Assembly: GCA_029582155.1 (NCBI GenBank)
Contig: CM055907.1
Span: forward strand, 7,418,501 to 7,482,500
DNA: 64,000 nt
Direction of reading: 5' to 3'
Source: Panopea generosa
Lineage: Eukaryota > Mollusca > Bivalvia > Adapedonta > Hiatellidae
Of this stretch, positions 2,069 to 56,000 are shown piece after piece (position 1 is the first letter of the stretch; each line of letters begins with the position of its first letter). Made by a program: the position numbers and the translations under genes. Under the pieces are notes generated by a model, which saw nothing but the letters and a program-made list of their open reading frames with translations, was not told where the DNA came from and ran no database searches.

Positions 2069-5000
2069 GTGAGAAAATAATATTAGAATATATTCCAGGT
2101 CTCACTACATAAAATAAAAAAATAAAAAATAAAATACACTGTTAAGAAATATTTTTAAAATAGAAAAAAAAAAGTAATCTTTTCCAAAGCATCACAGTAT
2201 CAGCTTATAAAACACAGAAAATGCTATGATAACCAACGTGCATTGTTAAAAACAGTTCAGTGCCACCATTAAGTTTTAATTAAATAAGAAGTTATTTTTC
2301 AATTCAGTATGTTACATCCATCTGTTAAAATCAAATAAAAGTTACGTTTCAAAGCCATGAAAGTCTTATTGTAGTTTGTTATATCAGCCTTGGCTCTTCT
2401 CATCTTTATAAACTATTGTGCAAATATTCCAAACCAAATAATAAAGGAATATTTAAGAGCAATAACTGAATTATCGTTAATTAATAAGGACACAACTCTG
2501 GAGTTTTCAGCGTCTAGTTTGTCAATGTAGGACACTCAGTATTTCATCAATCATGAAACATCGGGTATTTCCGTATACTCCGTATAATACACCTCGTGTA
2601 TAGCTCTAGAATACACCAACGCTATTCGCCTGTGTTACAAGTCTGTGTTCCTTCGCGTGAAAGTAACAAATTATGTATCCGTCATTAAGTTGAATATATG
2701 GCGTTATTATATCGATTTTTTAATTTTACACTTGACATGGGTCACGTTTATAGGTAAACTTAAAATATCTGTCTTGATTAACCAACGTTTATATTTTCAA
2801 CGGACATGTATATAAGGTGGCATAAGGGGGCTGCCATTTTATTTTATCATGTGACTGAAAGTTGTTCGAAAATGGCGCCTTATTATGTCAGAGGTCTATT
2901 GCGTAGCATAATGGCCGAGGTGATCAGATTAAGTATTTCATATCATATATTATCACATAATTTACGATGCAGGAGTTTAATAAACCCATTGCATATTTTT
3001 GATATTAACTTAGTGTAATATCACTTCCGATTCATCGTTCGGTGTTTTCCGTATAATTCGGCTCTCGTACGTAAAATTGCCAAAAAATTTTCGGACTGCC
3101 TGAATGTATAAATGACGTCGATTTTCCTGGTTAAATGACGTTATTTTGAGATGTTATGTCACACGATGACTCGCAGATACAAATATGCCTGATTTGTTGT
3201 CTCGTTCCTAACAGAGAAGATCTGTTTTCCGAGTTATGTGAAAAAACGAATCTTACATTTGTGCTCATTTATTTATTATTGAATTTTAAAACACGTTGGG
3301 AAAATGATACAATGCTCGACAAAGCCTTGCATAATGTATATTTTCCAACTCGTTTAATAAATTCAATGATTAATAAATACTTGTGTAAGATCCTCTACAT
3401 ATTGTCTATATGACGTCATGTTTTGTAACTTTTACAGACTGATTACATTTGAATTCTAAAGGAATTTATAAGAATATAATATCCACTGTTTTCAGTCCAT
3501 TATACACAAATCAGGAACAAAGTTTATTATGACAAGAAAAAGTTTTGCTAGGTAAAATGCTAAATTATAATAAAGTTATATCTATCCATTATTTCGAAAA
3601 CTCTTAGCAGGAATGAATACCCTGTTCGGAAAAAAACATGGTTTTCTTTCATATTGATTTTTCCTTTATTAAGGCTAGAGTACATACTCATTCCTATCAA
3701 ATGTAACAGCTTACCTGATTTAGAAAAATGTAAATAATTCTGTGATCAATATTATTTTCTATTCTATAGTATGTGACGAGTTTCACTACGGTGATGACTG
3801 TGTACAAGAGTGTAACTGTGGAGTAGGTGCCGCGACCTGTGATCCCGTCAGTGGATGTCTGTGTAAGGAAGGCTGGGTGGGAGATAAGTGTGATGCCGAC
3901 AAGAACGAGTGTGACACCAAGACAAGTCCTTGTACAGCTGACTTTACTGAGTGTGAGAATACACCTGGCAGTTACACATGTAACTGTATAGCTGGATACG
4001 ACCTTGACAATGGTGTATGTAAAGGTAAGGCAGAGTGTTGGCTGACTTTACTGAGTGTAATAATATATCTGACAATCACACATGTAACTGTATAGCTGGA
4101 TACTTCCTTGAGAATGACACATGTGAAGGTAAGGCAGAGTGTTGGAAGACTTTACTAAGTGTGTTAAAATACGTGGCAATTACACATGTAACTGTATTGC
4201 CGGATACATCCTTGAGAATGACATATGTGAAGGTAAGGCGGGGTGTTGGTTGACTTTACTAAGTGTATTAATACACCTGGCAGTTACACATGTAACTGTA
4301 TAGCCGGATACTTCCTTGAGAATGACATATGTGAAGGTAAGGCGGAGTGTTGGCTGACTTTACTAAGTGTGTTAGTACACGTGGCAATTACACATGTAAC
4401 TGTATAGCCGGATACTTACTTGAGAATGACATATGTGAAGGTAAAGCGGAGTGTTGGCTGACTTTACTAAGTATGTTAATACAAGTGACAATTACACATG
4501 TAACTGTATAGCCGGATACTTCCTTGAGAATGACAAATGTGAAGGTAATGTGGAGTGTTGGCTGACTTTACTAAGTGTGTTAATACACGTGGCAATTACA
4601 CATGTAACTGTAAAGCTGGATACTTCCTTGAGAATAACATATGTGAAGGTAAGGCGGAGTGTTGGTTGACTTTACTAAGTGTATCAATACACCTGGCAGT
4701 TACACATGTAACTGTATAGCCGGATACTTCCTTGAAAATGACATATGTGAAGGTAAGGCGGAAAGTTGGCTGTATATATACATATATATGTGAAAAGTGA
4801 TTATCGTAACTTTACTTGCTGTTGAATCTTTGTTGCCAGGTACCTGTATGCTGTGTCTTTCTCCTGTTGCACCAACTCTTTACAGAAATTCTTAATTATA
4901 ACATTTGCTAAGTGTCCACACGCAAATATGTACCTTGATCTTTGTCTTGATGTAATTACAGTGTCACATAAAAGGCCTAAAGTAGCGGTACCCGATTGAA

Positions 5001-8000
5001 GAACCCTTTTATTCATATTCCCTACACTTGCAATAAAAGTTGAGAGGTTCCTCCGTGGCCGAGTGGTCTAAGGCGCCGTCTCAAGATCACTAGACTAGTT
5101 CAAAGCGCGAGGATAAATAAAAACTTATACATACAAGAGCATTTACCTCTCACCGCTAAGGTCATAGGTTCGAGTCCTGCTCGCTCCAAAACTTTTATGT
5201 GAGAAAGTTTCCAGTTACTTGCGGTCGGTTGTTCTACTCATTCTGAGGTCTTCCTCAACCAGTAGAACTGGATATGCCGTATGTAACCTGGAATGTGTTG
5301 AAAATGTCGTTAAACCCCATTAAAAAAATCCAAAAAATTCAAGTTGGAACTGGAGTTTTTGTATTCATTTGTAGTGTTTTATTGGATAAATACTAAATAT
5401 ATAATACAATGAGTATAGTAATAAATACTGTATTTTACTGTGAAACCAAATCTATTTAAATTTAGATATAGACGAATGTTCCAAACTCCGGCTGAATTCC
5501 TGTGATCAGAAATGCACAAACACACCTGGCAGTTTTGAGTGTAGCTGCAACGAGGGATACAATAAAAATGGAAGTGCTTGTATAGGTTGGTAGATTTCCA
5601 CTGTTCACAAACATAATTTGTTATTTGGTAGTATTAGAGTGTTATATAAAAAATAATATTCAAACAGTTCATTATCTTACTTTTTTATCTAAAAGTTGAC
5701 ATTGAATTTCAAAGGTCAAGACATGATTCAGTATGAGGCATTATTTCGGTTTTTATTTCAAATATTGAAGAATGTTTGTACACAAATAGTCATAAACACA
5801 TGATTTAGTATTTAACATCATTATAATTTTTATTTAAGATATCAACGAATTTTAGGACATAAATAGTTGTAAATACATGATTTAGTACATAAACATCACT
5901 GCAATTTTTATTTAAGATATTGACGAATGTTTGGGCATAAATAGCTGTGATCATATATGTAACAACACCGATGGTAAATACAAATGCACGTGCCGAGATG
6001 GATACAAATTAGATTCAACCGACAGACACACATGTACACGTAAGTATATTTTTTTATATAAATACAACACATGTCAGCATGCATACTTGTATTCTTTTAA
6101 GTCGACTATTGTATGAATATACGAGCTTTTGTGCTCCTAACTTTAAGGTCAAGGTCATATTGCAGCTGGCCAAAAAGGTAATATTTGTATTCAATTGTTA
6201 TGCATTGCTTGCAGTTGTATGGTTTAAACTTGGCAAAAAGTTTGCATGCTTTTATTTCGATAGTGAGTAACATCCTGGGCTCTTAACTTGAAAGTCAATT
6301 TCATATTACAAAATGAAAAACTCATAGTTTACATTTAAACTCTTCGTTAAAGTTTAGATGCAAGTTTTTGTTTAAGTTGTGATTTACCACACATGCCTAT
6401 AGTTATTTGAAAGTAGCTTGACAGAAGTATCTATGCTTGTACTTTGAGGTATTTTGTATCATTACAGGGCTGCAAATAAAGACTGAAGGTGAAATAACAA
6501 TGTGAAAAAGAGTAATTAGGCTTATAACTCTATGTTTAAGTTTAGGTACAAGTTGTTTATAACGACATTACTTTCATTGTTGTATTATGATACTCATTCT
6601 TAAAAGTCAACTAAACGTTAGTCTAAGTTTATATATTTTACATCGATTGTGAAACAAGTTCTTATAACTTATACACACCATGCTCGAAGTCTTTCTGGGT
6701 AGAAGAGTACTAAGCATAAGCGGGGAAAAAGTGTCTTGCAAGGACACCACTGATGGCTATGGGAGAGGATCAAAATCCTCTGTTTTACAATTAATCAGCT
6801 GTTGGATTTTTATAATACAATTTAAGTAAACTTGATTTCTTAAATTTGAATATTAATATAAATGGAACTCAAACAAACTCTTTTCCTTTTGAGAAGTTGT
6901 TGTTGTTGTTGTTGTTTTTTCAGTCTTATCGCGACGGTGTCTACTTGAGACAGTATTCTGAGCGCTGTCACACTGGAGTATCATGTTGCAGACACATAGT
7001 ATGATACCCCACCCAGTCACATTATACTGACACCGGGCCGACCAGACCTAGAACTATCCTCTTAATACTGTCCTCTAAATGCTGAACGTCAAGCGAGGAA
7101 GCTTCTAGTACCATTTTTAAAATCATTGGTATGACCCGACCGGGGATCGAACCCACGACGTTCCGCATGCGAGGCGGACGCTCTACCACTAGACCACGCT
7201 GCGGTCACTGTAAGTAATAGATAATGCTCATAAATATGTTTTAACATACATTGTATATACTTGAAATCTTAATTATATCTAATATTATTTTTGTTTTATG
7301 ATACAGCTGAAAATGAATGTTCATCTGATAAAAAAGCTGAGTGTGGCCCGGACTCTGAATGTTCACTACTCAATGGAATCCCAGATTGTGGTTGTCTCAA
7401 GGGTTACGAGAAAGTTAATTCTTCAGCAAATTGCACCGGTATTGTTCGTTTATACTTATTTATTGAAGTTTGACTGTGAAGTCAGCTCGTAGCTTATATA
7501 AACCACTTTCGAGTACATTTCCTATTAAGAACGAGTACAGAGTGTTGTTTAAGAAAGGTCATCAGTTGGAGTCGGGGATTGTACCCGGAACTTCTCACGT
7601 GAACAATCAACACTTTTTCCACTGCACTACTGCCCCGCTTTATGTACCAAAACAGAATAGCTGTGTATTATTCCATTATGATATCGCATTAAAATATAAA
7701 ACAGTCATATCAACTTTAAAATTACCAACATATTGTTTTATATTTAAATTCACTTTTTTCTATTATTCCGACTCGACGGAGAGGAGTAACAGCTATTTGC
7801 GCAACGTTTTTGGCGTTGTTGCGGTGGCGCAGTCTGTAGAGACGTCGCCATTAGTGTGCTAGGAGCTGACGCCGCAGGGGCCTTGGGGGTTAGAATCTCG
7901 ATTTTTTTTTATATACAAGACTTACACTCTTCGATACTAACAGCCTAGTAAATGTGTATGAGTTGGGAGTCTGACATTACAAAAGTATTCATTTCGTTGA

Positions 8001-32000: not shown

Positions 32001-35000
32001 ACACGGGCCTATGGCCTATTGAATTGCAAATAAAGTTTCTCTACTTTATAATAAAATTTAAAAATTACGCGCCTACAGCGTCTCGTCCAATATGGTTTTC
32101 ATCACAATACGTACTCGTACACTATATTCCCATATTATACAAAACACTGTAAAATAACCTTATATTACTGCCTGTGTTAAGTTATCAACGTTCTAACCAA
32201 ATTGCAAACATATAAAAGGTTACCTTCAATCATAACAAACAAATACACACGCATTTCGTATTTACAGATATGTGAAAATGGAATAGTGTCATTCAACGGT
32301 TCATTGACGACATATGCACTTCCGGCGACATCCCAAGAAAGTAATGATTTTGTAAAGCAAATGGTACTGGCTGCCTTTCTGGCGGATCTTGACTCCGGTA
32401 AAATATTTTACCGTATATTAACGGATGAAGACCTGAATAATGACGTAAACAATGACGTAAAGGATAAGTTAACGAAGCTACTGAAGGATACTAATTACGG
32501 AGATACCGACCTGAATGTTGCAATAGTCGTAACATGGTACAATGTTACAATCAATACACAAATCAAAGACAACGTAAGTGTATTTGGCATTAATTTTAAT
32601 CATCTTAGTATGTCTTACTCTGTGGTAACTGTTAATTATTATACATGTACTACAATTACTACCAGTAACTTCTGATATCTTAACTATCAAATACTGCATT
32701 TTACTAACTATTTTGTCATTTATTCCCAATGTACTGTATGCATAAAATACCGGCACAAAAGTGAAGCAATTCCTTCGACAATATTGATTTTTGACCGCTC
32801 GTTAAACAGAAAGAAGTGGCTTACAGTCTAAGGTTACAATAATTGTCCAAACTAAACTATTTAAGATATATAACCGATAAAATTCCGTCAAGTTTTGGTT
32901 GTAAATTGTAAATGTAATCAACTTATACAAATGGCATTGTTTCGGATTCCGATTAGCTCAGTTGTTAGCGCGTCTGACTATCAATCCAGGCTCGTGAGTT
33001 TGAATCCCCGCCTGGCCACAATCTCCTTAATGATTGATATAGTTACGACATTGCGTCTCATTATCATTCGTTTCTCACTGTTGATTTAAGTGGGAAGGTT
33101 ATCTGTTACTTGCGGAGATGGGGTGTACTCGAGTACTGGTTAACCTTCAAGGAAACAGTGGTTAGGTTAACTGTTCGTCTGTAAGCCCTCGATGGCATAA
33201 AAATGACGCTAAATATTCAGTCAATCATTCAGTCAATCATTCGAATACGAATGAGCCAGTGACATTGTTTCCGATTGCAGCTTCATTCGGATACGAACGA
33301 GGCAGAGCTGCCCGCTTCGGATACATCCATCGATTTCACACATTGTTGAGAGGTCATCTGTTAATAGAAAATGATTAGTGGTACAATTTAAATTATTACC
33401 AATTGACATTATCTAAGGTATCATCATTACATGTATGTGTGTGCAACAATAATTGAAATAGTTATAATTGATTAATTAGTGTATATAATTTTTAAATGTT
33501 CTTGTATTGTTTCTTGAATCCACAATTACACAATATAAGTAGATACAATAAAACGGTACGCACATATATTTCCGTAGATCCTGTCCAAACATATATTAAG
33601 TTATCATTCTTCAAAACCTGGAAGTTTCATTGAAATGTTTCCATAGGAAAATAATTATAAAAATAACTACAGTCATCGTCTTTGACAGAAATACAAGTGT
33701 AACTTATATCATATACGTTGCACATGCCAGGCTTAATTAGCTCAATCGGTAACACGCCTGACTATTAATCCAGGGGTCGTGATTTCGATTCCCCGCCGGA
33801 TCACAGTCAGTGTTACTCGACATTGCGTCTTATTATAATGCGTCTCTCGCCGCTGATTCAAGTGGGAAAGTTACCTGTTAGCCCTCGATGGCATAACAAT
33901 TATGCTAAATAATCAAATCATCTATCATACAACGTTGTACATGTAGGATTTTGTTTCGCAATCGATGTAAAATATATGTTTTATAAAAGATTACTGCTAT
34001 CTAGGTTCAGATAAGCTTCCAGCTGATACTGATATCGGACGGCGGAAAGGGAGCGTATGCATTTATATTCTATAAATACGCTGGGACACAACATGCAGCA
34101 ATCCGCTACCTTTCGGTGATGTTTTTTCCACAACCTCCAGACTTGGAACCTCCAGAGAATATGCCGTTCGATAACAATTTGAACTTTGGTACAAAATTTA
34201 TATCTATTTTGTTTACTAAAAACTAATTTTTAATCAAATCCATCGATCCAGGCATAAATAGCTCTTGAATCAAAGGCTTTGAGCTTCATAACTACACAAT
34301 CTATGGAATATCAAATATATTTTATAAAGAGCTACCAACGACCTAAGAGTCAACGTTTTGGTTTACACATTTTTATATTTAAAAAGAATAATTACGTAAC
34401 AATAACAGTCCAACAACATACAGCTGTGTCAACAACCAGATACTACAATAAATGTTAAATCGATCCAGAAAGAAATGATTTTGTCAGCTTGACTTAATCT
34501 GTTTCCATACACAATACATAGAAATTAACTTAGATCCGTGTTTGCGTCGTATAGTATGGCTAAACTTTAGAACTGACGTTAATTATCTACCCATGTTCAG
34601 ACAAAGAATACGTGAACAGTTTATTCAGAGATGGAATACTGGCGTTGAAGAATTGCCCAAATTGGAATATTTTAGTAAATTCAAGAAACAGTTCATTTTT
34701 GAAGATTATTTAGATGTAATAAAAAAATAATGTCATTAGAGAACAGTTAACGTGCCTTAGATTAAGCTCCCACAATTTAGTAATTGAGTTTGGAAGATTT
34801 AATCATAAAAGACAGAGAAAATAATCTATGTTATTGTGTTCTATGAAAGTTGTTGAATCTGAATATCATTTTTTACTATGTTGGCCAAGATATCATCAGA
34901 ATATTATATTTAAATAGTTCATCTTGGCCTACAGTTCAGAAATGTTAAAGTATTATGTCAAATAAAAACAAGAAAATTATTTTAAAAATTGGAACATAAA

Positions 35001-38000
35001 ATTATGTCCCTGAAGCTTTTAAGATAAGAAACAAGTAAATAATATTTAATAATGAAACTACTTTACGATCCCTATATAGTGTAACTGTTTCTTATACCAA
35101 ATATGTGTATAGCTTATAACATAACTTGTATGTGAATGGTATTTATGATTTTGTTGTGTACTATATCTCGGCCGTATTATAAGTATAAGCACATATCGTA
35201 ATAAAATAACCAACTTGCATTTTAATATGAAGTTTATTTTGATATGTTTCTAAAATGTGTTTTATAGATTCGTGAAATGTGTTTAGTAGCATCTGAAATA
35301 AAGAAAAATGATGTGAACCAATACATATACTTACAAAAGACGTGGGTCTGTTTCTTAAAATGAGGTTTCCTGTTATATATTTATGTAATATGTGCTGCCT
35401 GTATGTACTATATACACATTATAACTACCCATTTATGTAGTAGCTAAGTGATAATAATGTTAAATGAACCAAGATACGTGTTTATGACTGACTTGAGATT
35501 CTGTAACTCCACATCCAAGCGGGGTGGTAGTGTAATGGATAGAGTGTTGGCCGCTCACGACAGACGTTGTGGGTTCGATCCCCAGCTCGACCCGATGCCT
35601 CTCATAAAATAACACTCATTACTGGTTCTACCCAGGAAGCGAACTCGGGAGGGGTTCATATAAGCTCTGAGCTTTAAATGCAATCAAGATTTGAAAATTC
35701 CTATCTATGCCCAATATGTAAAATACGTCCAATATGTTCACAAGTTAATTTTTAAATAAAAAATCAGCGACAATCAGTAATCAGTTTTGTCCAAATATTG
35801 TTTGCACAAAAATGTGGTTTCCACAAATATGTGAAGTAATCCCTTTTCTATAGTGTCCCGTTTGAGGGCAATTGCGGCATTTTTTTAAATCAAGAAAAGT
35901 GGAAACTGTGATAGTTTTCATCACCGTTTTCCCGTTGTTCCGACTTTTTACGATTTTTCTTAAAATAATAAATATGCCACGATGTTTCCAATGGGACACC
36001 GTACTCCTGCCTTAATATAACTGGAAACAAACTGGAAACTGTTTTTATAAGAAGGATATTAGCTTTATAAAATGAAACTTTCTACTTAGGAGTGGTTTCA
36101 TGTACACGAATCAAGCTTGTTTACAAACAATGAATAAGCAGAGAATTCTATGTCTGTCCAAAAATACATATTACTATTTAATGCTTACTAAGCTGTTGGG
36201 CTGACTAAACTTTCCCTGGTGCAACTGACCAATAAACGGTTGTGGCTGTTTGGCCAATCACCGTTTCATGGCGGTAACCACAAACTGTCAATTTATATCA
36301 ATCAAACATGTGTGTTGTTGTATAAGCAATATCTTCTGAATGGCATTCTTCTCACCTGTTGACATATTGTAATATTTCAAATGTATATTAAGCATACATT
36401 TAACACATGTTGTATATCCTTTATCATCTAGGTATAAAAGGTTTACTGGTTTTCGATCTCAACAAAGGAGCTAGTACCAGCCTATCGTCATGTTGGAAAT
36501 GTCGGCAATGGGTAGACGAAGAACAGATCGATTCTCTTGAACGAAACTGGAATAGAATACCACCGTGTCCGTGTAACAGACGAGTTTTACTTACCTCTAG
36601 ACCACGTTTTAAATATATTGCATTTAAGCTACATAGCCAAAGCGACTGTTATACCGTTTCGCCAAGAGGAAGAAACAAGCAAGGCTCGGTATGTGGCTTT
36701 ATAAATAGTTTATCTAAGTACCTGGCACCTGTAGCAACTGACCAATCACATGCTTGTATGTTACTGCTGTGTAACATTCCCTGTAAACACTGGCCAATCA
36801 GCGTGCCTGTATGTACCTGCTGTGTAACATGCACTGTTGCAAATGGACAATTACATGCTTGTGTGTTACTGCTGTGTAACAGTCCCTGTGGCAACTGTCC
36901 AATCGGCGCGGTAGTCTATTGGATAGAGTGTTGGTTGCTAAAGTTAAAAGTTGCGGGTTCGATCCCGAGCTCGACCTGATGGCTCTCATAAAACAACACT
37001 CAGTACTGGTTCTGCCCAGGAAGCAGACTCGAGAGAGGTTCATATAAGCTCTGAGCTTTCACCGCAATCGAGCTAAAAGAAATTAGTATAAACTAACCGT
37101 CCAATTACATGCCTGTATGTTACTGCTATGTAACACTCCCTGTAGCAACCGATCAATCAGGTGCTTGTATGTTACTGTTCTGTAACAATACCTGTAGCAA
37201 CTGATCAATCAGCATGCCTGTATGTAACTGCTATATAACAATCCTTGTAGCAACTTAACAATCAGCGTACTTCTATGTTACTGCTGTGTGACAGTCACTG
37301 TAGCAAACGACCAATCAGCGTACTTGTATGTTACTGCTCTGTAAACAGTCCCTGTAGCAACTGACCAATCAGCGTGCCTGTATGTTACTACTGTATAACA
37401 GTCCCTAGCAGGGATCGCTGTGACCATTTTTACAGTCTACTGAATATTCCAAAATACTTTGTCTTTTCAAACATTCCTTTCAAGCTTTTTAAAAGTAAAT
37501 TCTCATACATAAAAAAACCTTAAAAGTGAAAATCCATTTTTATCCCCGATACCATATGTACAACAGTTGTATATCCTCTAAATCAAAGTTATATCATATT
37601 TACATACCATTCTATCTGGGCTGCGTTCAGTTCGGTTAAACGTTTGATAACGTTAGCTAACATATTTTCCTGGAAACTGGCTTAACCTCATATTATCGCG
37701 TAGTACGCGATAATTTTAGGGAACCAGGCATTAATCGTGTTTGCTGTTTCACGGCGCTGAACGCAGCCTTGTTTACAGAATACAATACACCCGTGAAGGA
37801 AAATGATACTATAAAATTAATGATATTGACGTTGCTTCAATAGTAATATTTTAAACACCCTGACCTTGACCTACATTTAGGATGAGCAAGGTGATATGCT
37901 GCGTCCAGTCACATGATTACATGCTGCAGTTCTTATTACTCAGGTCACCGTTTGTTTCAATTCTTTTTTCAGATTTGCTGCTACGACTCGTCCAGATATG

Positions 38001-41000
38001 TAGGAGGATTTAAAACAAGGTACAATCCCGCTAAAAGAAAAGGCCGAAAAAAGTTCAACGCTGAAAGGAAAATGTGGGAAATTTGCCGTGACAATGATCA
38101 GTTAGAGAAGTTTTACACTGTTCGACCTCAAAACTTCTGTGAACGAAGATCAGATAATTCGATTGGTATGTGACGCTGCTGTTAGTGATTATTGTATATC
38201 TATATCATTTGTTCCATATTTTCTTTCAAAGTTAATGCCCCTTTGTTTCAAGAATTCTCCTAATTTCAGTGTTGTGTTATATTGTTTAAATTAATTGCAG
38301 TATTTACAAATGTGTTATATTTACAATGGACGTACCATATTCAACCTAAATGAAATGTTGTGATACATATATCACTAATACTGTGGCCATTAGATATTGC
38401 AATTTGGTTCGTACAGCATGAGTGTTGTGGTCCATATAACATGAGTGTTCTGGCTCATATATAATAAGTGATGTGGTTCGTACAGCATGAGTGCTGTGGT
38501 TCATACATCATTAGTGATGTGATATATACATCATTAGTGATGTGGTTCATACATCATTAGTGATGTGGTTCATACATCATTAGTGATGTGGTATATACAT
38601 TCTTAGTGCTGTGGTTTATACATCATTAGTGATGTGGTTTATACATCATTAGTGCTGCTGTTCATACATCATTAGTGATGTGGTTCATATATCATTAGTG
38701 CTGTGGTTTATACGTCATTAGTGCTGTGGTTCATACATCATTAGTGCTGTGGTTTATACGTCATTAGTGATGTGGTTCATACATAATAAGTGCTGTGGTT
38801 CATACATCATTAGTGCTTTGTTTCATACATCTTTAGTGATGTGGTTTATACATCATTAGTGATGTTGTTCATACATCATTAGTGCTGTGGTTCATACATC
38901 ATAAGTGCTGTGGTTCATACATCATTAGTGCTGTGGTTCATACAACATTAGTGCTGTGGTTTATACATCATTAGTGCTGTGGTTCATACGTCATTAGCGT
39001 TGTGGTTCATACATCATAAGTGATGAAGTTCATACATCATTAGTGATGTGGTTCATATATTATGAGTGTTGTTGTTCATAATTTATTAGTGATGTGGTTC
39101 ATAAACCATTAGTGTTGTGGCTCACATAAAATGAGTGTTGTGTTTTAGATATACTTAGTGATGTGGTCCATACATCATAAGCTTTGTGGTTCATATATCA
39201 TTAGTGATGCTGTTCATAAATCATGAGTGATGCAGTTCATATATCATTAGTGATGCGGTTCATATATCATGAGTGTTGTGGTTAATACACCATAAATGAT
39301 GTGGTTCATACACCATTAGTGACGTGGTTCATATATCATTAGTGTTGTGATTCATTCATCATTAGTGATGTGGTTCATAAACCATTAGTGTTCTGGTTCA
39401 TATATAATGAGTGTTGGGGTCCATATATCATGAGTGTTGTTGTTAATACATCATTAGTGATGTGGTCCATATACCATTAGTGATGTAGTTCATACATCCT
39501 TAGTGATGTTGTCCTTTAACTAGTAGTGTTGTGATTAATATAGCATTAGTGCTGTGGTTCATTTAACATTAGTGATATAGTTCATAAACCGTTAGTGTTG
39601 TTGTCCATATGTCATGAGTGTCGTGGATCATATATCATTAGTGATAAGGTTTCTATATCATAAATGTTGTGGTTCATAAGCATGGGTGTTGTGGTTGATA
39701 TTTCATTAGCGATGTAGTTCATAATGAGTGGTGTGGTTCATATTTCATTTGTGATGTGGTTCATATATCATGAGTGTTGTGGTTCATGCATCATAAATGA
39801 TGTGGTTCATACATCATTAGTGTTGTGGTTCATACATCATTAGTGTTGTGGTTCATACATCATTAGTGATGTGGTTCATACATCATTAGTGATGTGGTTC
39901 ATACATCAAAAGTGATGTGGTTTATACATCATAAGTGATGTAGTTCATAAACCGTAAGTGTTGTGGTCCATATGTCATGAGTGTTGTGGATCATATATCA
40001 TTAGTGATAAGGTTTCTATATCATAAATGTTGTGGTTCAAAAAGCATGGGTGTTGTGGTTGATATTTCATTAGCGATGTGGTTCATAATTAGTGGTGTGG
40101 TTCATATATTATTAGTGTTGTGGTTCATATTTCATTTGTGATGTGGTTCATATATCATGAGTGTTGTGGTTCATGCATCATAAATGATGTGGTTCATACA
40201 TCATTAGTGTTCTGGTTCATATATCATGAGTGTTGTGGTTCATGCATCATAAATGATGTGGTTCATACATCATTAGTGTTGGGGTCCAAATATCATGAGT
40301 GTTGTGGTTAATACACCATAAATGATGTGGTCCATATACCATTAGTGCTGTGGTTCATACATCATTAGTGTTCTAATTTATATATCATGAGTGTTGTGGC
40401 TCATATATCATTAGTGATTAGGTTCATAATGGTGAGTCGTAAATTGAACTAACTGTAACATTGTATTGTAGGCGGCGGCAACGGTGAACCGCATATTAAC
40501 TTACAGTCACATTGTATTGCAGTCGGCAGCAATGGTGAGCCGCATATTGAACTTAAAGTCGCATTGTATTGCAGGCGGCGGCGATGGTGAGCCGCATATT
40601 AAACTAACAATCGCATAGTATTGCAAGCGGCGGCATTGGTGAGTCGCATATTGAACTAACAGTCATATTGTATTGCAGGCTGTGGCAATGGTGAGCCGCC
40701 TATTGAACTAACAGTCACATTGTATTGCAGTCGGCGGCAATTATAAGCCGCATATTGAACTAACAGTCACATTGTATTGCAGGCGATGCCAATAGTGAGC
40801 CGCATGCTGACCTGACAGTCACATTGTATTGCAGGTGGCGGCAAGTGTGAGCCGTATATTGAGTCTATTGAACTAACAGTCACATTGTATTGAAGTCGGC
40901 GGCAATTATAAGCCGCATATTGAACTAACAGTCACATTGTATTGCAGGCGATGGCAATAGCGAGCCGTATGCTGACCTGACAGTCACATTGTATTGCAGG

Positions 41001-44000
41001 TGGCGGCAAGTGTGAGCCGTATATTGAGTCTATTGACCTAACAGTCACATTGTATTGCAGGTGGCGGCATTGGTGTGCCGTATATTGACTTAACAGTCAA
41101 ATTGTATTGCTGGTGGCGGCAATTGTGAGCCGTATATTGACCTTACAGTCATATTGTATTGCAGGCGGGGGCAATAGTGAGCCGTATATTGACCTGATAA
41201 TCATATTGTATTGAAGGTGGCAGCAATGTGAGCAGTATATTGACCTAACAGTCATACTGTATTGCAGGCAGCGGCAATAATGAGCCGTATATTGACCTAA
41301 CAGTCATATTGTATTGCAGGTGGCGGCAATGATGATTCGTATATTGACCTAACAGTCAAATTGTATTGCAGGTGGCGGGCAATGTTGAGCCTTATATTGA
41401 CCTTACAGTCACACTCTGTTGCTGGTGGCAACAATGGTGGGCCATATATTGACCTAACAGTCATATTGTATTTCAGGCAGCGGCAATAGTGAGCTGTATA
41501 TTGATCTAACAGTCATATTGTATTGCTGGTGGCGGCAATGGTGAGCCGTATATTGTCCTCTAACAGTCATATTGTATTGCTGGTGGCGGCAATGGTGAGC
41601 CGTCAATTGACCTAACAGTCACAATGTATTGCAGGCGGTGACAATGATGAGCCGCTTATTGAACTTACAGTCATATTGTATTGCAGGTGGCGGCAATGGT
41701 GAGCCGTATATTGACCTAACAGTCATATTGTATTGCAGGTGGCGGCAATGGTGAGCCGTATATTGACCTTACAGTCATATTGTTTTGCAGGCGGTGACAA
41801 CGGTGAGCCGTATATTGACTTAACAGTCACGTTGTATTTCAGGCGGCAGCGATGGTTGGCCGTATATTGACCTAACAGTCACACTGTATTGCTGGTGGCG
41901 ACAATGGTGTGCTGTATATTGACCAAACTGTCATATTGTATTGCAGCCGGCGGTAATGTTGAGCCGTATATTGACCTAACAGTCACATTGTATTGCAGGC
42001 GGCAGCAATGGTGAGCCGTATATTGACCTAACAGTCATATTGTATTGCAGGTGGCGGCAATGGTGATTCGTATATTGACCTAACAGTCAAATTGTATTGC
42101 AGGTGGCGGGCAATGTTGAGCCGTATATTGACCTAACAGTCATATTGTTCTGCTGGTGGCGGCAATGGTGAGCCGTCAATTGACCTAACAGTCACAATGT
42201 ATTGCAGGCGGTGACAATGATGAGCCGCTTATTGAACTTACAGTCATATTGTATTGCAGGTGGCGGCAATGGTGAGCCGTATATTGACCTAACAGTCATA
42301 TTGTATTGCAGGTGGCGGCAATGGTGAGCCGTATATTGACCTTACAGTCATATTGTTTCGCAGGCGGTGACAATGGTAAGCCGTATATTGACTTAACAGT
42401 CACATTGTATTGCAGGCGGCAGCGATGGTGGGCCGTATATTGACCTAACAGTCACACTGTATTGCTGGTGGCGACAATGGTGTGCTGTATATTGACCTTA
42501 CTGTCATATTGTATTGCAGCCGGTGGTAATGTTGAGCCGTATATTTACCTAACAGTCACATTGTATTGCAGGCGGCAGCAATGGTGAGCCGTATATTGAC
42601 CTAACTGTCATATTGTATTGCAGCCGGCGGTAATGTTGAGCCGTATATTTACCTTACAGTCACATTGTATTGCTGGCGGCGACAATGGTGAGCCGTATAT
42701 TGACCTAACAGTCACATTTTATTGCAGGCGACAGCAATGGTGAGCCGTATATTGACCTAACAGTCACACTGTATTGCTGGTGGCGACAATGGTGTGCTGT
42801 ATATTGACCTAACAGTCACATTATATTGCTGGCGGCGACAATGGTGTGCCGTATATTGACCTAACAGTCACATTGTATTGCTGGCGGCGACAATGGTGTG
42901 CCGTATATTGACCTAACAGTCACATTTTATTGCAGGTGACAGCAATGGTGAGCCATATATTGACCTAACAGTCACACTGTATTGCTGGTGGCGACAATGG
43001 TGTGCTGTATATTGACCTAAATGTCATATTGTATTGCAGCCGGCGGTAATGTTGAGCCGTATATTGACCAAACAGTTATATTGTATTGCAGGTGGCGGCA
43101 ATAGTAAGCCGTAAATTGACCTTACAGTCAAGTTGTATTGCAGGTGGCGGCAATAGTGATCCGTATATTGACCTAACAGTCACATTGTATTGCAGGCGGC
43201 GGCAATGTTGAACCGTATATTGACCTAACAGTCACACTGTATTGCTGTTAACGACTATGGGGGGCCTTATATTGACCTAACAGTTGTATTGTATTGCAGG
43301 AGGCGGCAACAGTGATCCGTATATTGACCTAACAGTAACATTGTATTGCAGGCGGCGGCAATGTTGAACCGTATATTGACCTAACAGTCACACTGTATTG
43401 CTGTTGACGACTATGGGGTGCCTTATATTGACCTAACAGTTATATTGTATTGCAGGTGGCGGCAACAGTGATCCGTATATTGACCTTACAGTCAAATTGT
43501 ATTGCAGGTGGCGGCAATAGTGAGCTGTATATTGACCTTGCAGTCAAATTGTATTGCAGGTGGCGGCAATAGTGATCCGTATATTGACCTAACAGTCACA
43601 TTGTATTGCAGGCGGCGGCAATGTTAAACCGTATATTGACCTAACAGTCACACTGTATTGCTGTTGACGACTATGGGGTGCCTTATATTGACCTAACAGT
43701 TATATTGTATTGCAGGTGGCGGCAACATTGATCCGTATATTGACCTAACAGTCACATTGTATTGCAGGCGGCGGCAATGTTGAACCGTATATTGACCTAA
43801 CAGTCACACTGTATTGCTATTGACGACTATGGGGTGCCTTATATTGACCTAACAGTTATATTGTATTGCAGGCGGCGACAATTGTGAGCCTTATATTAAC
43901 CTTACAGTCATAGTGTATTGCAGGCGGCGTCAATGTTGAACCGTATATTGACCTAATAATCATATTGTATTGCAGGTGGCGGCAACAGTGATCCGTATAT

Positions 44001-47000
44001 TGACCGAACAGTCACATTGTATTGCAGGCGGCGGCAATGTTGAACCGTATATTGACCTAACAGTCACATTGTATTGCAGGTGGCGGCAATGGTGATCCTC
44101 ACATAAGGACACCAGATGGAACACAATATACATTCAATGGCCTGGGAGAGTACACATTGATAAAAATGGAAACAGGAGAAGTTGAATTCCAAGCTCAAGG
44201 AAGGACGTCAGCTTACCTCAATGAAAACAATGAAAGTGTAGGCGCTACGGTTTTCACGGCTTTTGCAGCGAAAGATTACAAAGACGATGCACATGTCATG
44301 ATTAACATGAAAGAGGATAAAACAGGTTGAGTGAAAAAAAGTTCCATTAGCTCCGATAAAACCTCATTATCCCCTTTATAATGCAATATCTTAACTGAAG
44401 ATAGGTGTTCATTATATAAAAAGAATTAAATATTAAACAGATATCACAACTGATAGATACCATTTCGACGATTTCCTTCATTTCTAAAATAAGCGTTTGT
44501 CCCTGTAAAATGCAGTACTTTCACTTATTTAGAGATTAAATCGATACATGGATTTTATGAACAGCATATACTTTCTTATGCAATAGCTTAATAAATTATT
44601 AGTTTTGTACGGCGAAATAATATAGTATAGGTTATTCGGCGCCAACTAAAAGGACAAATATAGTAGATAGACTTACCTATTTACCTATAAACACATTAAC
44701 AAACTAATATGCAGACTGAATCTAGATCATTGATACCTGCAGAACTACAAGGTTTCAGCAAAGTTCATCCGAATACTCAATGTTTTACACCTTTATACAT
44801 CATACCTTCGCTACAGTAGTGCTATTATTGTCCTCTCTCTTTTTTACACTTTGGAATCACACAGACGTTGATTAGTCTGTAACGTCCATTTTAACATCAG
44901 TTGATTTTTGTAATGACATGCCTTCATATATCCTGTATGGACAACGTCAAAAGACGTAACGTCATTTCCCGCACTATGCATTAAGTAAGGAAGTTCAATT
45001 CAAATGTTATATTTAACATTGCAACCATGCGGAATTTTGTTGCCAGTTTCCTTGTCCATTTCCAGATGGCTGAAACTTAAATAATGATTGAATTAAATTG
45101 AACTTGTGTAATATTATCACTTCCCTCAGGAAGATTTTTAATGAAAATAAAAAAATAGTTCGCTTGTCTTTACTACTGCGACGGGGACACATTATTCAAG
45201 GGAAAAAATGAATCATTTGATAAAGTATCACGTAATGATGCAAATATATAATACATATACAATTAACCAGGTATGTATTTTATATCTTTCTTTTAATGCA
45301 GAAGGTACCCTTTTCGCAGATATGTGATCAATTGTGACAAAATTGCCGCCAAATCAATTTTAATTTGATTAGTTTTTATAAGTGTGATATAAATTATTCA
45401 TGAAATATATCCATTTGAACTTTTAAAGAATTTCTTTCATATATTTATGAAGCCTGCGTCACAGATGCCGTTAGTTTAATTATAATAAGTTGGTACTAAT
45501 TTCTTAAATATAAAGTACTTGGACTAAGAAGTACTTTTACGTTCATATATTTAAAGACAAATTGAATGTGTAAAAGTTAAAACCGATTCTAAATGGTCGT
45601 GCATTCATTCAATTAATATGTAAAAACACAAGTAAAAAACTTTTTTTTTTATTTTCAACATTGCAATTTCATGAAGACGATTTTTTTAAGTGATATTTTA
45701 GTATCTACAAAGACAAAAGATAGGGGTGGCCAGTGGAGATCAACCCTCAAAGTAAGGTTTGTCCCCCGTACCCTTTATTTGACCAAAACATTTTTACTGC
45801 TAATATATGTCACCCATATTTTTTTATTCTTAGTACCAGTCTTTTCAAAAGCGATAATATTTTGACCAAGACTGCGTTTAAATGTTTTATGATAAATGAT
45901 CATGCAAAAGAGATACATTTAACTAACACATAAAGACTTGTTCTCATGTATATGTTTAATAATGGGTGATCATGGTAAATGAATACGTTTAAATTAATTA
46001 TATTAATATTCATTTACCATATGTATCCATCTGTTCACATGCATAATTGGAGGTGAAGATATAACATAAATAAAAATGCAGTATGACTTTCATTATAATA
46101 GCTTCATATTTTATTCTCCAGGATTGGAAGTAAGAGTGCAAGGACAGGACGTGACAAATGCGTTTAATGATGATAGTGTTGTCTTCGATTATGAGGATCT
46201 AACAGACAAGGTGCAACTTGATCGGCAGGATAATAATACTAATATTGTCAGTGTGTACTTCACTAATTTAGGTAATACTATGATGAATAAAACTCATGTT
46301 GAAAGAACATCAAACTCTTAGGAAAAATACATAATAACCCCTCCTCCCCATCCAATTTGAAATATAAATAAAGGCATTAACTGAGTAAATGCGTTAGGCG
46401 AATTACGCTTTTGTTTTGTCCCGAGCAAAATGCAAACAGCTAGTTTACGAAGTGCCAGAAAAAGAAATAGTAAAATTACATAGGAATTATGATTCGGAAA
46501 CCATTGCCTTTTTATTTTATGTAAATTGCATTTTTCAACAGAATTTCAGACATTTCATGTCGGCCACTGCAACTTATTATCGTTTTGTCATCCGTCAGTC
46601 AGTTGACCTATACTTAACACTCCTTATCAGTGCAAGGCATCGACTGCTTCTCCACATCTTCACAGGTGTGAGACTAAAGGTCGTAGAACAAAGTTTATGA
46701 CACATCACGACAGAGGCTATAGCCGGGCAGGGGTTCGAACTCTCAGCCCCTGGAGCGATAGTCTAACGTGTTGCCTACTGAGCTGACCGGGTCAGGCATA
46801 ATTGACTTAATAATTATAAAAAAACATTTGTAAATTTGAGCATTTAATAATGGAATTACACTGTTTCAATTAACCATATGACAATGATTGATATTGTAGT
46901 TACTTCCTCTATCGTTATTTGCCTCATAAAAATCATTAAGTCATCTTTTTTTATCAGAAGGAGTCAGAAATTTTTATTTCACCTATATTTACAATATTTA

Positions 47001-50000: not shown

Positions 50001-53000
50001 CATTTTGGGCATCTATTTTCCGAGATCCAAAATGTGAGAATTTTAATTTTGTTAATTATTATCGTTGGTCGTTTTTAAGCTTATTTATATAGTTTATGTT
50101 AAAAAAATATGTTTATACACAAATATCTTTTTCAGGGATGGTTGAAAATGAATTAGACTCGGTGTTCATCTATCAACCAAATTCAAAGTATTCAGATTTC
50201 CAGGATAGAGAAGCACATGTTAATTATCTGGAAGACGCAAAACCAGAGCTCGTTAAAAACGCAACAGCTCTGTGCGGTGTTGACAATACTCCCTGTATAT
50301 TTGACAAGGTGTTTACCGGTAGAGACGATGTCGCAAACGACACTAAGACAGTAATTTCGGAAAGGGAAACTACAAAGGAAATATTAGGTCAGCTATTTTG
50401 GCGATATTCAACATGGACTATTTGTTCTAATACGCCTGTTTTTGAAAATAACTTTTGGTATGCACTGTTTGACCATCTGTTCTTCCATCCATTAACATTT
50501 GTGTATGAGCTTAGCTCATCCTACAGTTCTAACCAAACATCTTCCAAACAACATGTACAACTTAACCGGAATGATATGATATATGGATGTGTCCATTGAT
50601 TTTGTCTGAGTAATTGACTTTTATTTGATTCAAATTTTATGTGGAATAGTATCGCCATTACCGAAATGTAAGCAACAATTTTATTTAAAGATTTCTTTCT
50701 CACGATCAGTGTCCTTATTGTTTCGGGGGTAGAAAAAAGTTAAATCAATGTCACTGACACCAGTCTCGCAAAGTAAAAACAAAGCGGTTAGAACGTGTTA
50801 TATTTCTTTTATGCACGTCATTTTAGATTGCAGAGTTTTACATTTCAAGTATTTATTATTGGTTTCTGCAACGTAATGAACTGATTGTGTTCATGAGATA
50901 AACGAAGGTTTCAATAATTTAAAACGTGATTTCAAAGGGTTTGCACGTACATACAAGCTTATACAGTGAGTTGCTCTTTCTTCTCTGCAGAAGTTCTTGC
51001 TGTAATTTAACAATTAGATTAAATATCGTGACCTGATATTAGGAGCATAATTCAGTTATATCAATATATTACAATGAACAGCAAAAAGGGGGAAATACGT
51101 TTTGGTGAAGTAACCTAGACTTTAACTAAATTGTCCTCTAGGTACATTCGATACACTTTTGCTCATAGGCTCGTGTTAGTCTCTATTTACGCTTTAATTT
51201 GTTTTCAGAAAACACAGTACCGTTTATTAACATTAGTGCAGAATCACTGGACGATGGGACAGCAGGAACAATTCACCTGACCAAAGGTCAGCTGAAGACG
51301 GTTTCGCTACAAGGAACGGATGATAGTAGCATAACATACGCTGTTGTGAGCGGAGATGACCTCGTTGTTATGGGAACGCCAGATGGTAACAATGCCGTGG
51401 TTGTCAATCTGACAATGACAGAAGCTACACCGTCAACAGTCAGGTAGGCTATATAAAGAGTGAGAGTAGAAGAGAAGAAGTTAGAAACTGGAACACATAC
51501 TAGGTTATAAATAGCATCCATTTTCAATGATATAGGAAGTCTTATATGCAAGTTTAATAATCATGTTATTTGAATCTTAGAAATGAAATACAATTAAATA
51601 ACAGGAACGTGTGTCATTTACTTGCAGAAGGACGGTGGTTCTACTTAGATTCATTCTGAGGCTTTTCCCCACCCCGTTCAAAAAATAAATAAATATATAT
51701 ATATAGGCAACACTGTAATTGAATGAGTAGGTCAAAGCGCAAACTGTAGCAATGTAGTGTAGTTAACTATAAAAGTATTAACAGTTCACTTAAATCTGTC
51801 CGAGCGAGTATAACCTTGTTTCAAAGATATTCAGAAACAAAAACGCAGTGATGTTGGTCATGTTCAGAACAATGCAACTTGCAATAAATTATTTTTAGTA
51901 TATATTACGTAACATGGTAAGAATACAACTTACAATAATGTTTAGTATATATTACGTAACATGGTAACAATACAAGTTACAATAAATTATATTTAGTATA
52001 TATTACGTAATATGGTAACAATACAACTTACAATTAATTATGTTTAGTATTTATTACGTAACATGGTAACAGCAACTTACAATAAAATTATATTTAGTAT
52101 ATATTACGTAACATGGTAACAATTCAACTGACAATAAATTGAATTTAGTATATATTACGTAACATGGTAACAATACAACTTACAATAAATTAAGTTTAGT
52201 ATATATTACGTAACATGGTAACAATTCAACTTACAATAAATTATGTTTAGTATATATTACGTAACATGGTAACAATACAACTTACAATAAATTATATTTA
52301 GTATATATTATGTAACATGGTAACCATTCTCACCGGGACATAGGTCCCGGTCCGGGCGGGGAGAAGTTAGACTAAATGAGTATAGCTGTTATTTGCTATT
52401 GTGGTATTCAGATTGACAATTGTTACAGCTTCTATTCCTAACTACAATGGATTATTTATTGTTTAAAAGTACAATAAACTTTATATACACTCCTTAGTTG
52501 TTTCAGCAGAATACATTACGTGATTGATTCGGTATTATGCAAAACATAGTTGTTTCAGCAGAATACGTTACGTAATTGTTTGAGTATAAAACCATAGGCA
52601 ATGGTTCCAGCTTAATGCCTTTTCAGCATAAAATGTACATGTAGCTGTTTTTGGCATCAATAATTTTCACATACTATCTTATGTATTTATTTCATCGTCA
52701 TACGTCACGTACACATAGCTGTTTTAGCAGAGTACATTATATAATTGTTTCAATATAAAACAATACGCAATCGTTTAAGCTCAATGCCTAACGTAGTGTG
52801 TGTGTTTTTATTTTTCATCATAATATGTAGTTGTTTTGGCAACAATAATTTCCACATACTATCTTATGTATTTGTTTTATCGTAATAACTCACGTTTACA
52901 TAGTTGTTTCAGCAGAGTACATTACGTAGTTGTTTCAGAACAATATCTTACATAGTTGGTTAAACACAATATATTATGTAGTTGTTTAAGCACACTATCT

Positions 53001-56000
53001 TATGTATTTGTTTCTGAACACTATCTTATGTAGTTGTTTCAGCACACTTTCTTACGTAGTTGTTTCAGCACACTATCTTATGTAGTTGTTTAAGCACACT
53101 TTCTTATGTAGTTGTTTCAGCACACTATCTTATGTATTTGTTTCAGCACACTATTTTATGTAGTTGTTTCTGAACAATATATCATGTAGTTGTTTCAGCA
53201 CACTATCTTACGAAGTTGGTTAAACACAATAGCTTATGTAGTTGTTTCAGCACACTTTCTTATGTAGTTGTTTCTGAACACTATCTTTTATAGCTGTTTC
53301 AGCATACTATCTTATGTAGTTGTTTCTAAACACTTTCTTACGTAGTTGGTTAAACACAATAACTTATGAAGTTGTTTCAGCACACTTTCTTACGTAGTTT
53401 TTTCAGCACGCTGTCTTACGTAGTTGTTTCTGAACACTATGTCATGTAGTAGTTTCTGAACACTATCTTAGATAGTTGTTTCAGCACACTATATTATGTA
53501 GTTGTTTCAGCACACTATCTTACGTTGTTGTTACAGCACAGTATCTTTTTTTTATTTTAACAGTATAACGGCTGTTGATGATAAAAATGTACAGGCTCCT
53601 GCGTATGTATTTAACATAATTTTCTGTACTGGGTGCAACAATCGCGGCATCTGTGACTTCAGCAACGTCAGACAAGACGTGACCAGCATCGACAACTTCC
53701 ACTTAGCTGAATGCACGTGCGAGGAGTATTACCAAGGTAACATAGACACTTGTAAACGGTATATAATTTGTATAACCAAGGTAACATGGACACCTGTAAA
53801 CGGTGTATTTTTAAAAGAAACGATTATATCTCCTTACTATACTTTTGCTCTACTCATCTGCAGCAAGAAATCACAACCACTATGAACCATTTTGATAATA
53901 TTGCATAACCAAAGTACATATGCCTTTTTTAAGCGTAAGAATCTTGCTACCATGGCAAAAAAGGGGCTGTGTAGTGAAACGATGATTTGAGCCAACTTGG
54001 TTTTATTTGGATGAAAATTAAAAATATGATGAATAATTGCTGGTTTACGTTTACGACGATTTTTGTCTTAAGTTTTATTTGTGAAACGAAGCTCTGAACT
54101 GTAGAACGGAACCTGCTCGCACCGAGTCCGTCACATAGCAATGAGATTGGAGCTGATTGACGTCATAATTGTGTAAGCATTAAGTGCGGGCCAGGCCCTG
54201 CTCTTTTATCTGAATTAAACAGACCTGATTCGGGAGATATCGGGGATCCTGCTGGCATATTGTAATATTATGGTAGTCAAGAATTCTTCTAATGTATAAA
54301 ATTCTTAAATTGGGTCAATATTTTAATGGAGAAATTATTTGAAATCAGCGAAGGTCAACCATGTCACGTACATATACATGACAGGCTAATGGAGATAAGG
54401 TTTATCATCATGTATAAATGACAATAGATTTTGTTATATGATATGGGCGGGATCTTAAGGGAATCCGTAATTAAGAAACTGACCAATTCTGAGGTTGCAA
54501 TGAATTGACCAATCATAGGATAGCTGTTTATTCAGTCAGAGAAAGATTTTAGAGAAGAAAGGACAGTCGGTTAGAAGCTAACCTCGAGTATGGTAACATG
54601 TCAAGTGTTAGAAATAGGTTGGTTTTAGACGAACGTAAGCGAGTTTAAAATGTTAACTTTGTGACTTTGAACTTATATGAGAAATATATAAACATGTGAA
54701 TAAAATGACTTTATATAAAACCACCATGTTTGAGTATATGTTATACTACAACATGTAGGTATATAAAAAGAACCAAGCCAGTGGACAAATGTTACATAGC
54801 GCCCTGCATAAGCATTGGCATAGTTTAATATTTACGCCATATTTTTTCATATATACAATGTTTAATGCCATGTCAGAAAATACACATAGAACCATTGTGC
54901 TAGGAAACTATGCTGAACACAAAACAGACGTTTGGATATTCACCTCATATTTACAAAATTATACAGATTATTAATTTACAACTGAACAAGCGTTAGCAAT
55001 ACACATGCGACAATACATGTACTTATTACAATACCTATAGCTATACTTATATTCGACAGTTACTGATATTCTCATTTAATGCAACACCATTACAGGGGAT
55101 GACTGTGAATATGACTTTGATGGATGTGCGGCCTTGCCTTGTTCCCTGGGACGAGATTGTACTGACAATACAATAACTGAACACATCAGTACAGCGAGGG
55201 CATACAACTGTTCCGATTGTCCCGACGGCTATACACTAATAAACGATTTTTGCCGAGGTTTGGTCATTTTTGCTTCTTGAATTGTTTAATAACATTGATT
55301 GACATAGTCTTTAACTTTAAATTAAGAATATAGTTATATATCAATAGTCTAAATCTACTCATGTAGTGCTAGTTTAACTGTTTCGTTTCTATAAATGCAT
55401 GTATGTCATTTACTGAGTGTTTTAAATCCACTCAGGAAATTACACAATGTCATGTAGTGCTGGTTTGATTGTTTCGTTTCTATAAATGCATGTTTGTCAT
55501 TTACTGAGTGTTTTAAATCCACTAAGAAAATCACACAATGTCATGTAGTGCTGGTTTGACTGTTTCGTTTCTATAAATGCATGTATGTCATTTACTGAAT
55601 GTTTTAAATCCACTAAGTAAATTACACAATGTCATGTAGTGCTGGTTTGACTGTTTCGTTTCTATAAATGCATGTATGTAATTAACTGAGTGTTTTATAT
55701 CCACTAAAAAAATCACACAATGTCATGTAGTGCTGGTTTGACTGTTTCATTTCTATAAATTCATGTATGTCATTTACTGAATGTTTTAAATCCACTAAAC
55801 TAATTACACAATGTCATGTAGTGCTGGTTTGACTGTTTCGTTTCTATAAATGCATGTATGTAATTAACTGAGTGTTTTAAATCCACTTAGAAAATCACAC
55901 AATGTCATGTAGTGCTGGTTTGGCATATTCGTTTCTATAAATGCATGTATGTCATTTACTGAGTGTTTTAAATCCACTAAGAAAATCACACAATGTCATG

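Follow-up and report, generated by a model that had tools for sequence, protein, structure and literature searches.

A long minisatellite that copies an intron-exon boundary in a VWD-domain gene of Panopea generosa

The locus and the composition of the array

A window of 64,000 nucleotides from the bivalve Panopea generosa (GenBank assembly GCA_029582155.1, contig CM055907.1, here C14; C14:7418501-7482500; by the window we mean this whole stretch) contains a plus-strand gene with EGF, NIDO, and VWD exons, in which the intron in front of a VWD exon holds a minisatellite of 52-bp units resembling the end of that intron and the start of that exon. We compared the window with the 1.47 Gb genome. 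The two exons flanking the intron are called 20 and 21, following the numbering of an earlier note written from the sequence of the window (Table 1). Exon 21 matched the Pfam family VWD with 25.2 bits (E 2.3e-5). VWD and NIDO each exceeded the Pfam cut-off in one of two segments, EGF_CA was also named, and the Pfam search of two segments that we provisionally label AMOP returned no family.

Tandem Repeats Finder (TRF) described the array as 70.2 copies of 52 bp at 40428-44095, with 82% matches and a score of 4464. Our segmentation gave 69 full units preceded by a partial first one, with the last unit ending on the acceptor at 44079, in agreement with the roughly 70 tandem units of the earlier note. 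The units lie head to tail, are within the range of 10-100 bp, and have been gained and lost at the scale of the unit, as in a minisatellite. The frame does not stay open through the array (52 = 3n+1), as it would in a coding tandem repeat. The repeated site is an acceptor; repeated donors are found in separate arrays at 3937-4772 and at two other places on C14.

Exon 21 has five other matches in the genome, P2 to P6. P2 (C14:7389290), 98% identical and about 73 kb from the window exon, has both minisatellites of the intron, the 52-bp one with 64 units and the 23-bp one with 110 copies. P3 (C14:1978128), 88% identical, has neither array; its intron is about 0.6 kb long, and its single-copy junction aligns with the 52-bp unit over the intron tail and the exon start. 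P4 to P6 are 68-70% identical and have no such array at the matching boundary. When the genome was searched with two 52-bp units, the best candidates being scored and very common words skipped, matches were found only in the arrays of the window and P2. In the alignment to P3, about 26 nt of the unit correspond to the end of the intron, with its branch point, short tract, and AG, and 26 nt to the VWD exon start. The 52-bp array thus repeats the intron 20/exon 21 boundary in tandem, and the earlier note was right to read the unit as the exon's own 3' splice site and beginning. A chance likeness to the exon start limited to the last unit, which the note had named as a possible refutation, is excluded because P3 holds a single copy of the boundary.

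The copies are of uneven quality. The AG is intact in 53 of the 70 window units (the real acceptor being the last), a CTRAY branch point in 49, and both in 35; the corresponding counts for the 64 units of P2 are 48, 49, and 36. An identical 25-nt module from branch point to AG occurs in 7/70 units including the real one, and 46/70 have it with at most two mismatches. Forty of the 70 units end in exact TTGTATTGCAG, and GTGAG is retained in 29/70. Only 6/69 units encode the peptide GGGNG[DE]P[HY]I exactly, and 40/69 encode a looser form with [DE]P.I. The earlier note, which had each unit contain these elements, therefore overstated the uniformity of the array.

Table 1. Features of the window discussed in the text (window positions)
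Feature	Position	Strand	Description
Exon 20	37973..38165	+	ends AATTCGATTG then GTATGT, phase 1; delimited by homology to paralogue P3 and open frame
Intron 20	38166..44079	+	5914 nt: about 240 nt unique, then adjoining 23-bp and 52-bp minisatellites
23-bp minisatellite	38405..40428	+	88 copies, adjoins 52-bp array; TRF
52-bp minisatellite	40429..44079	+	70 units, 53 with intact AG; unit of about 26 nt exon start and about 26 nt intron end
3' splice site module beside exon 21 body	44055..44079	+	branch point CTAAC, AG; frame-keeping acceptor
Exon 21	44080..44325	+	start of VWD domain; ends CAG then GTTGAG, weak donor
104-bp array	3937..4772	+	8 copies: EGF exon end and AAG/GTRA donor; first donor (4025) keeps frame
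77-bp array	5750..5944	+	2.5 copies: acceptor TTTATTTAAG and EGF exon start (ATATTGACGAATG); its last copy forms the real exon (5917)
26-bp array	52901..53547	+	25 copies, many with TTGTTTCAG; ends 16 nt before exon start 53564; unit without exon

Acceptor copies, reading frame, and divergence

We scored acceptors with a small matrix made from 23 sites of the window gene and P3. By this matrix, the real acceptor lies at the 60th percentile of the other AGs in the window, and the matching acceptor of P3 at the 87th. The scan of each unit suggested in the earlier note found scores no lower than that of the last copy at 42 of the 52 upstream sites; the same is true of 58/118 in an array on C10 described below, relative to its own last copy. 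An earlier small matrix, which included three exon bases, placed 24/52 upstream window sites at least as high. On neither the matrix nor the module measure does the last copy stand out in its local sequence, and local strength as the reason for its choice was not borne out.

With exon 20 ending in phase 1, none of the 52 intact acceptors upstream gives a frame that stays open to the end of exon 21: each meets a stop, from 5 to 56 codons in and most commonly at codon index 22 (22/52), and only 44080 opens exon 21. Both the frame-keeping role of the last unit and the broken frame behind any upstream choice, as the earlier note had described them, were thus borne out. In P2, 47/47 upstream acceptors meet a stop.

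The introns of the window and P2 share 98.3% identity, and the two 52-bp arrays differ by indels of 104, 52, and 156. Single differences amount to 67/3338 (2.0%) in the 52-bp array, 4/238 in the unique part of the intron, and 26/2024 in the 23-bp array, and dS between the two copies is 0.0235 over 14 exon segments. Because the divergence of the 52-bp array is about that of dS and of the unique intron, the array drifts at about the neutral rate. Counting parsimony changes per column of the unit, we found nine at the A of the AG (column 51, tied for rank 4 of 52) against a mean of 4.3. These column counts gave no clear evidence of selection keeping or killing the copied AGs, and exchange between units blurs the underlying tree. 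The proposal that array length tunes expression found no support here, where the array has diverged about as far as neutral sites and the A of the AG sits in one of the faster columns. From 5' to 3', a trend from old to young units was weak in the exon half (Spearman 0.33, p 0.005) and absent from the intron half (Spearman 0.16, p 0.18).

Arrays at other exon edges

We searched the genome for paired EGF-exon starts (AG followed by ATATHGAYGARTG) spaced closer than two domains would be. Pairs of the DIDEC start gave 3 matches at gaps of 20-50 (0 in the reversed control) and 75 at gaps of 51-80 (1 in the control); all but two of these 78 lie in one array on C10, and the others are on C9 and C5. 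The DVDEC start gave no signal, its pairs being outnumbered by those of the reversed control at both gaps (1 against 5 and 0 against 3). As a single pattern, the DIDEC start has 483 sites in the genome including the C10 array (22 in the reversed control).

The C10 array (C10:46406903-46396885, minus strand) is about 10 kb long and made mostly of 73-76 bp units, with 119 copies of AG/ATATTGA (the slash marks the splice site). All 118 upstream acceptors run into a stop, and the last one opens into a full EGF exon. Near 677 kb on C9, about nine 73-bp copies end in one that continues into an EGF exon, and 5/5 recognised upstream acceptors meet a stop. The same holds for the single upstream intact acceptor (1/1) of the 77-bp array in the window. 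P3 lacks the 26-bp array (52901-53547) at the corresponding position.

On the donor side, the 104-bp array of the window has GTAAGG in 6/8 units; the real exon end lies in its first copy, and 7/7 later donors lie beyond a stop. Searched for across the genome, the donor pattern had 11 matches and its control 12, which is no evidence by itself. Only the matches on C14 were followed, for their sequence identity with the window array, and TRF confirmed arrays there: at least 42 copies at C14:7492300-7497300, 39 of them with AAG/GTRA, and 15 copies at C14:18029600-18031600, nine of them with AAG/GTRA. At both places, an open EGF frame ends in the first copy. Whichever side of an exon the tested arrays lie on, the frame-keeping copy is the one that adjoins the exon body, and the frames of the arrays other than the 52-bp one fit an exon-proximal rule on the acceptor as well as the donor side.

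Three of the 14 arrays in the window with a period of at least 40 bp lie at exon edges, against 0.64 expected under random placement (P 0.02); this post hoc count, which uses our own approximate list of 28 exons, is no more than suggestive of an enrichment. The main periods of the arrays described here are 52, 73/76, 77, and 104, none a multiple of three, which might be due to chance in so few cases.

The region around P3 has repeats of its own (coordinates of a joined stretch, reverse strand). A 38-bp array of about 155 copies at 78861-84848, many with CTATTTCAG, ends 28 nt before the exon start at 84877, and the window has one copy of a similar motif at the corresponding position. A 45-bp array at 26791-35611, with about 193 copies, has a unit that looks like a Thr/Ser-rich mucin-type coding repeat. 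Between about 40000 and 52000, about five tandem blocks of 2-3 kb each have an EGF exon and an array of 62-bp or 182-bp period, and these arrays resemble the one at 22139-22557 of the window. A dispersed element of about 300 bp, which looks like a short interspersed repeat, occurs in the window at 17476-17775, 23412-23684, 32948-33231, and 33726-33880, and on both strands in the P3 region.

Known systems and possible explanations

Tandem repeats spanning an intron-exon boundary, named mirages, have been described in amphioxus, where 5' and 3' exon edges are affected (PMC3087553). In BflGb6, the units are composed of the end of the intron and the start of exon 2, are 150-160 bp long, and number 6 and 3 in two haplotypes; in BflGb9, the end of an exon is duplicated, and the units of the Adh3 mirage measure 10-72 bp (PMC3087553). 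The Adh3 data and RT-PCR of the globin genes were said to suggest that regular splicing is undisturbed, although many units keep the AG or GT, and the authors proposed mirages as a source of new introns (PMC3087553).

The arrays of Panopea generosa share with those described there the unit that spans the boundary (by the alignment to P3), the involvement of both exon edges, the retention of AG or GT in many but not all units, the variation in length, and the position of the authentic copy at the end of the cluster. As judged from its structure, the 52-bp array is a mirage in the amphioxus sense, a structural term that does not require common descent. The present arrays differ from the amphioxus globin mirages in scale, the acceptor being present in 70, 64, and 119 copies and the donor in at least 42 as compared with 3 and 6 units of 150-160 bp, and in the spread over several places of one genome, probably in another lineage. 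The choice among many acceptors, which the earlier note regarded as a real puzzle, is less new than it seemed, boundary repeats of this sort being already described in amphioxus. Our literature search, of partial coverage, noticed no boundary array of such size.

The original amphioxus Adh paper is said to be Nucl Acids Res 2002 30:2871. In the human interferon-induced gene 6-16 (IFI6/G1P3), Turri, Cuin and Porter reportedly described in 1995 a minisatellite that gives multiple splice donors, with a unit said to be about a dozen bp long and present in a few dozen copies. It resembles the 52-bp array as a minisatellite of an exon edge offering many copies of a splice site, but there the donor is repeated, whereas each unit of the 52-bp array repeats an acceptor together with a branch point. 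Tandem acceptors such as NAGNAG lie a few nucleotides apart behind one common branch point; several acceptors likewise compete for one exon in the array, but each unit there has its own branch point. In mutually exclusive clusters of the Dscam type, the choice is among many similar acceptors of whole coding exons, unlike the truncated and frame-breaking exon starts found here. The choice among equal splice sites has mostly been tested with engineered duplications; Reed and Maniatis (1986) and Lang and Spritz (1983) reportedly duplicated splice sites in laboratory genes and asked which site is used. The present arrays are a natural version of such duplications, with dozens of copies.

We consider it probable that the array is a long mirage, close to neutral, and tolerated since splicing takes the exon-proximal site. 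Comparison of the paralogues supports a tandem duplication of a 52-bp segment straddling the intron 20/exon 21 boundary, in the common ancestor of the two tandem genes after their split from P3. The array then grew to about 70 copies by steps of single units and blocks and now diverges at an approximately neutral rate, as the differences between the window and P2 show. Once exon 21 is transcribed, the splicing machinery would take the acceptor beside the exon body, by exon definition or by proximity, and transcripts using upstream copies, which carry a stop, would be removed by nonsense-mediated decay. The array might thus persist because splicing picks the exon-proximal acceptor and decay removes the errors. 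The upstream acceptors are transcribed first, and therefore a first-come rule would fail at this intron.

Several points weigh against this explanation. Two splice columns have changed less often than the mean of 4.3, namely the G of the AG with 3 changes and the branch-point A with 2. The 23-site matrix gives the real acceptor an unexceptional rank. The acceptor presumed to be in use has been identified from frame and homology, and most cryptic acceptors of any intron likewise lead to stops, so that stop counts alone prove no rule. The donor of exon 21, GTTGAG, appears too weak for exon definition to be an easy answer, and a decay of both arrayed genes remains compatible with their dN/dS of 0.65. 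At the position of this donor (44326-44331), P2 has GTTGAG as well, P3 has GTGGAG, and P4 to P6 have GTAAAC. In the window, a stop lies in frame directly after GTTGAG.

If both arrayed genes were decaying or silent, the array would cost nothing, and besides the weak donor, the dN/dS of 0.65 between them, not significantly below 1 (p 0.15), could be taken in favour of this. Over the longer comparison with P3, dN/dS is 0.57 (Fisher p 2e-6), which indicates constraint; two of the 14 segments have a net one-base gap relative to P3 and were retained. Frames were picked for the fewest stops in the window copy, so that their openness is tested only by P2 and P3: neither has a stop in the 14 exon segments, and P2 has no frame-shifting gap in them. 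We regard the decay of both genes as unlikely, though by no means negligible.

The array could also act as a regulatory attenuator, with competing acceptors slowing splicing or misdirecting it into stop-containing transcripts and the copy number setting expression. Such a role would suit the breakage of the frame by 52/52 upstream acceptors, the presence of branch point and AG together in half of the units (35/70), and the retention of long arrays in two tandem paralogues. Yet the A of the AG is not kept and the array diverges almost neutrally, and the mirages of amphioxus reportedly leave splicing undisturbed (PMC3087553). An attenuator is therefore rather doubtful in our view. That some units serve as 12-nt microexons (AG, GCGGCGGCAATG, GTGAG), each adding an in-frame GGGN before the VWD domain, is highly improbable: AG, 12 nt, and GTRAG do occur in 22/69 adjacent pairs of units, and 12 nt would keep the frame after exon 20, which ends in phase 1, but the GTGAG goes back to the codons GGT GAG, which P3 has too, and survives in only 29/70 units, and the spliceosome would hardly handle an intron as short as the 40 nt left between neighbours. 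Assembling long tandem arrays is difficult, and one amphioxus mirage is reported to have been misassembled in a draft genome (PMC3087553), but an array inflated or invented by the assembler is scarcely credible when two paralogous arrays have their own unit variants and indels in multiples of the unit, and arrays of like design exist elsewhere in the genome.

Beyond the long and nearly neutral mirage at intron 20, a wider reading may be entertained as a tentative possibility: mirage-type minisatellites might arise repeatedly at exon edges, an exon-proximal rule of the spliceosome might ignore dozens of equal sites, and the arrays could possibly become length-tunable attenuators. With acceptors in 70, 64, and 119 copies and donors in 8, 15, and at least 42, Panopea generosa offers a natural experiment, in which the unarrayed P3 is the control for the main case. 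If the upstream acceptors are ignored, these introns would rule out a choice by transcription order; if splicing does use them, the length of the array would act as a dial on expression. Were the exon-proximal rule true, the arrays would be length-graded natural tests of exon definition against a first-come co-transcriptional choice. The arrays also show that mirages can grow far beyond the three to six units described for the amphioxus globin genes, and that gene prediction can be misled by them.

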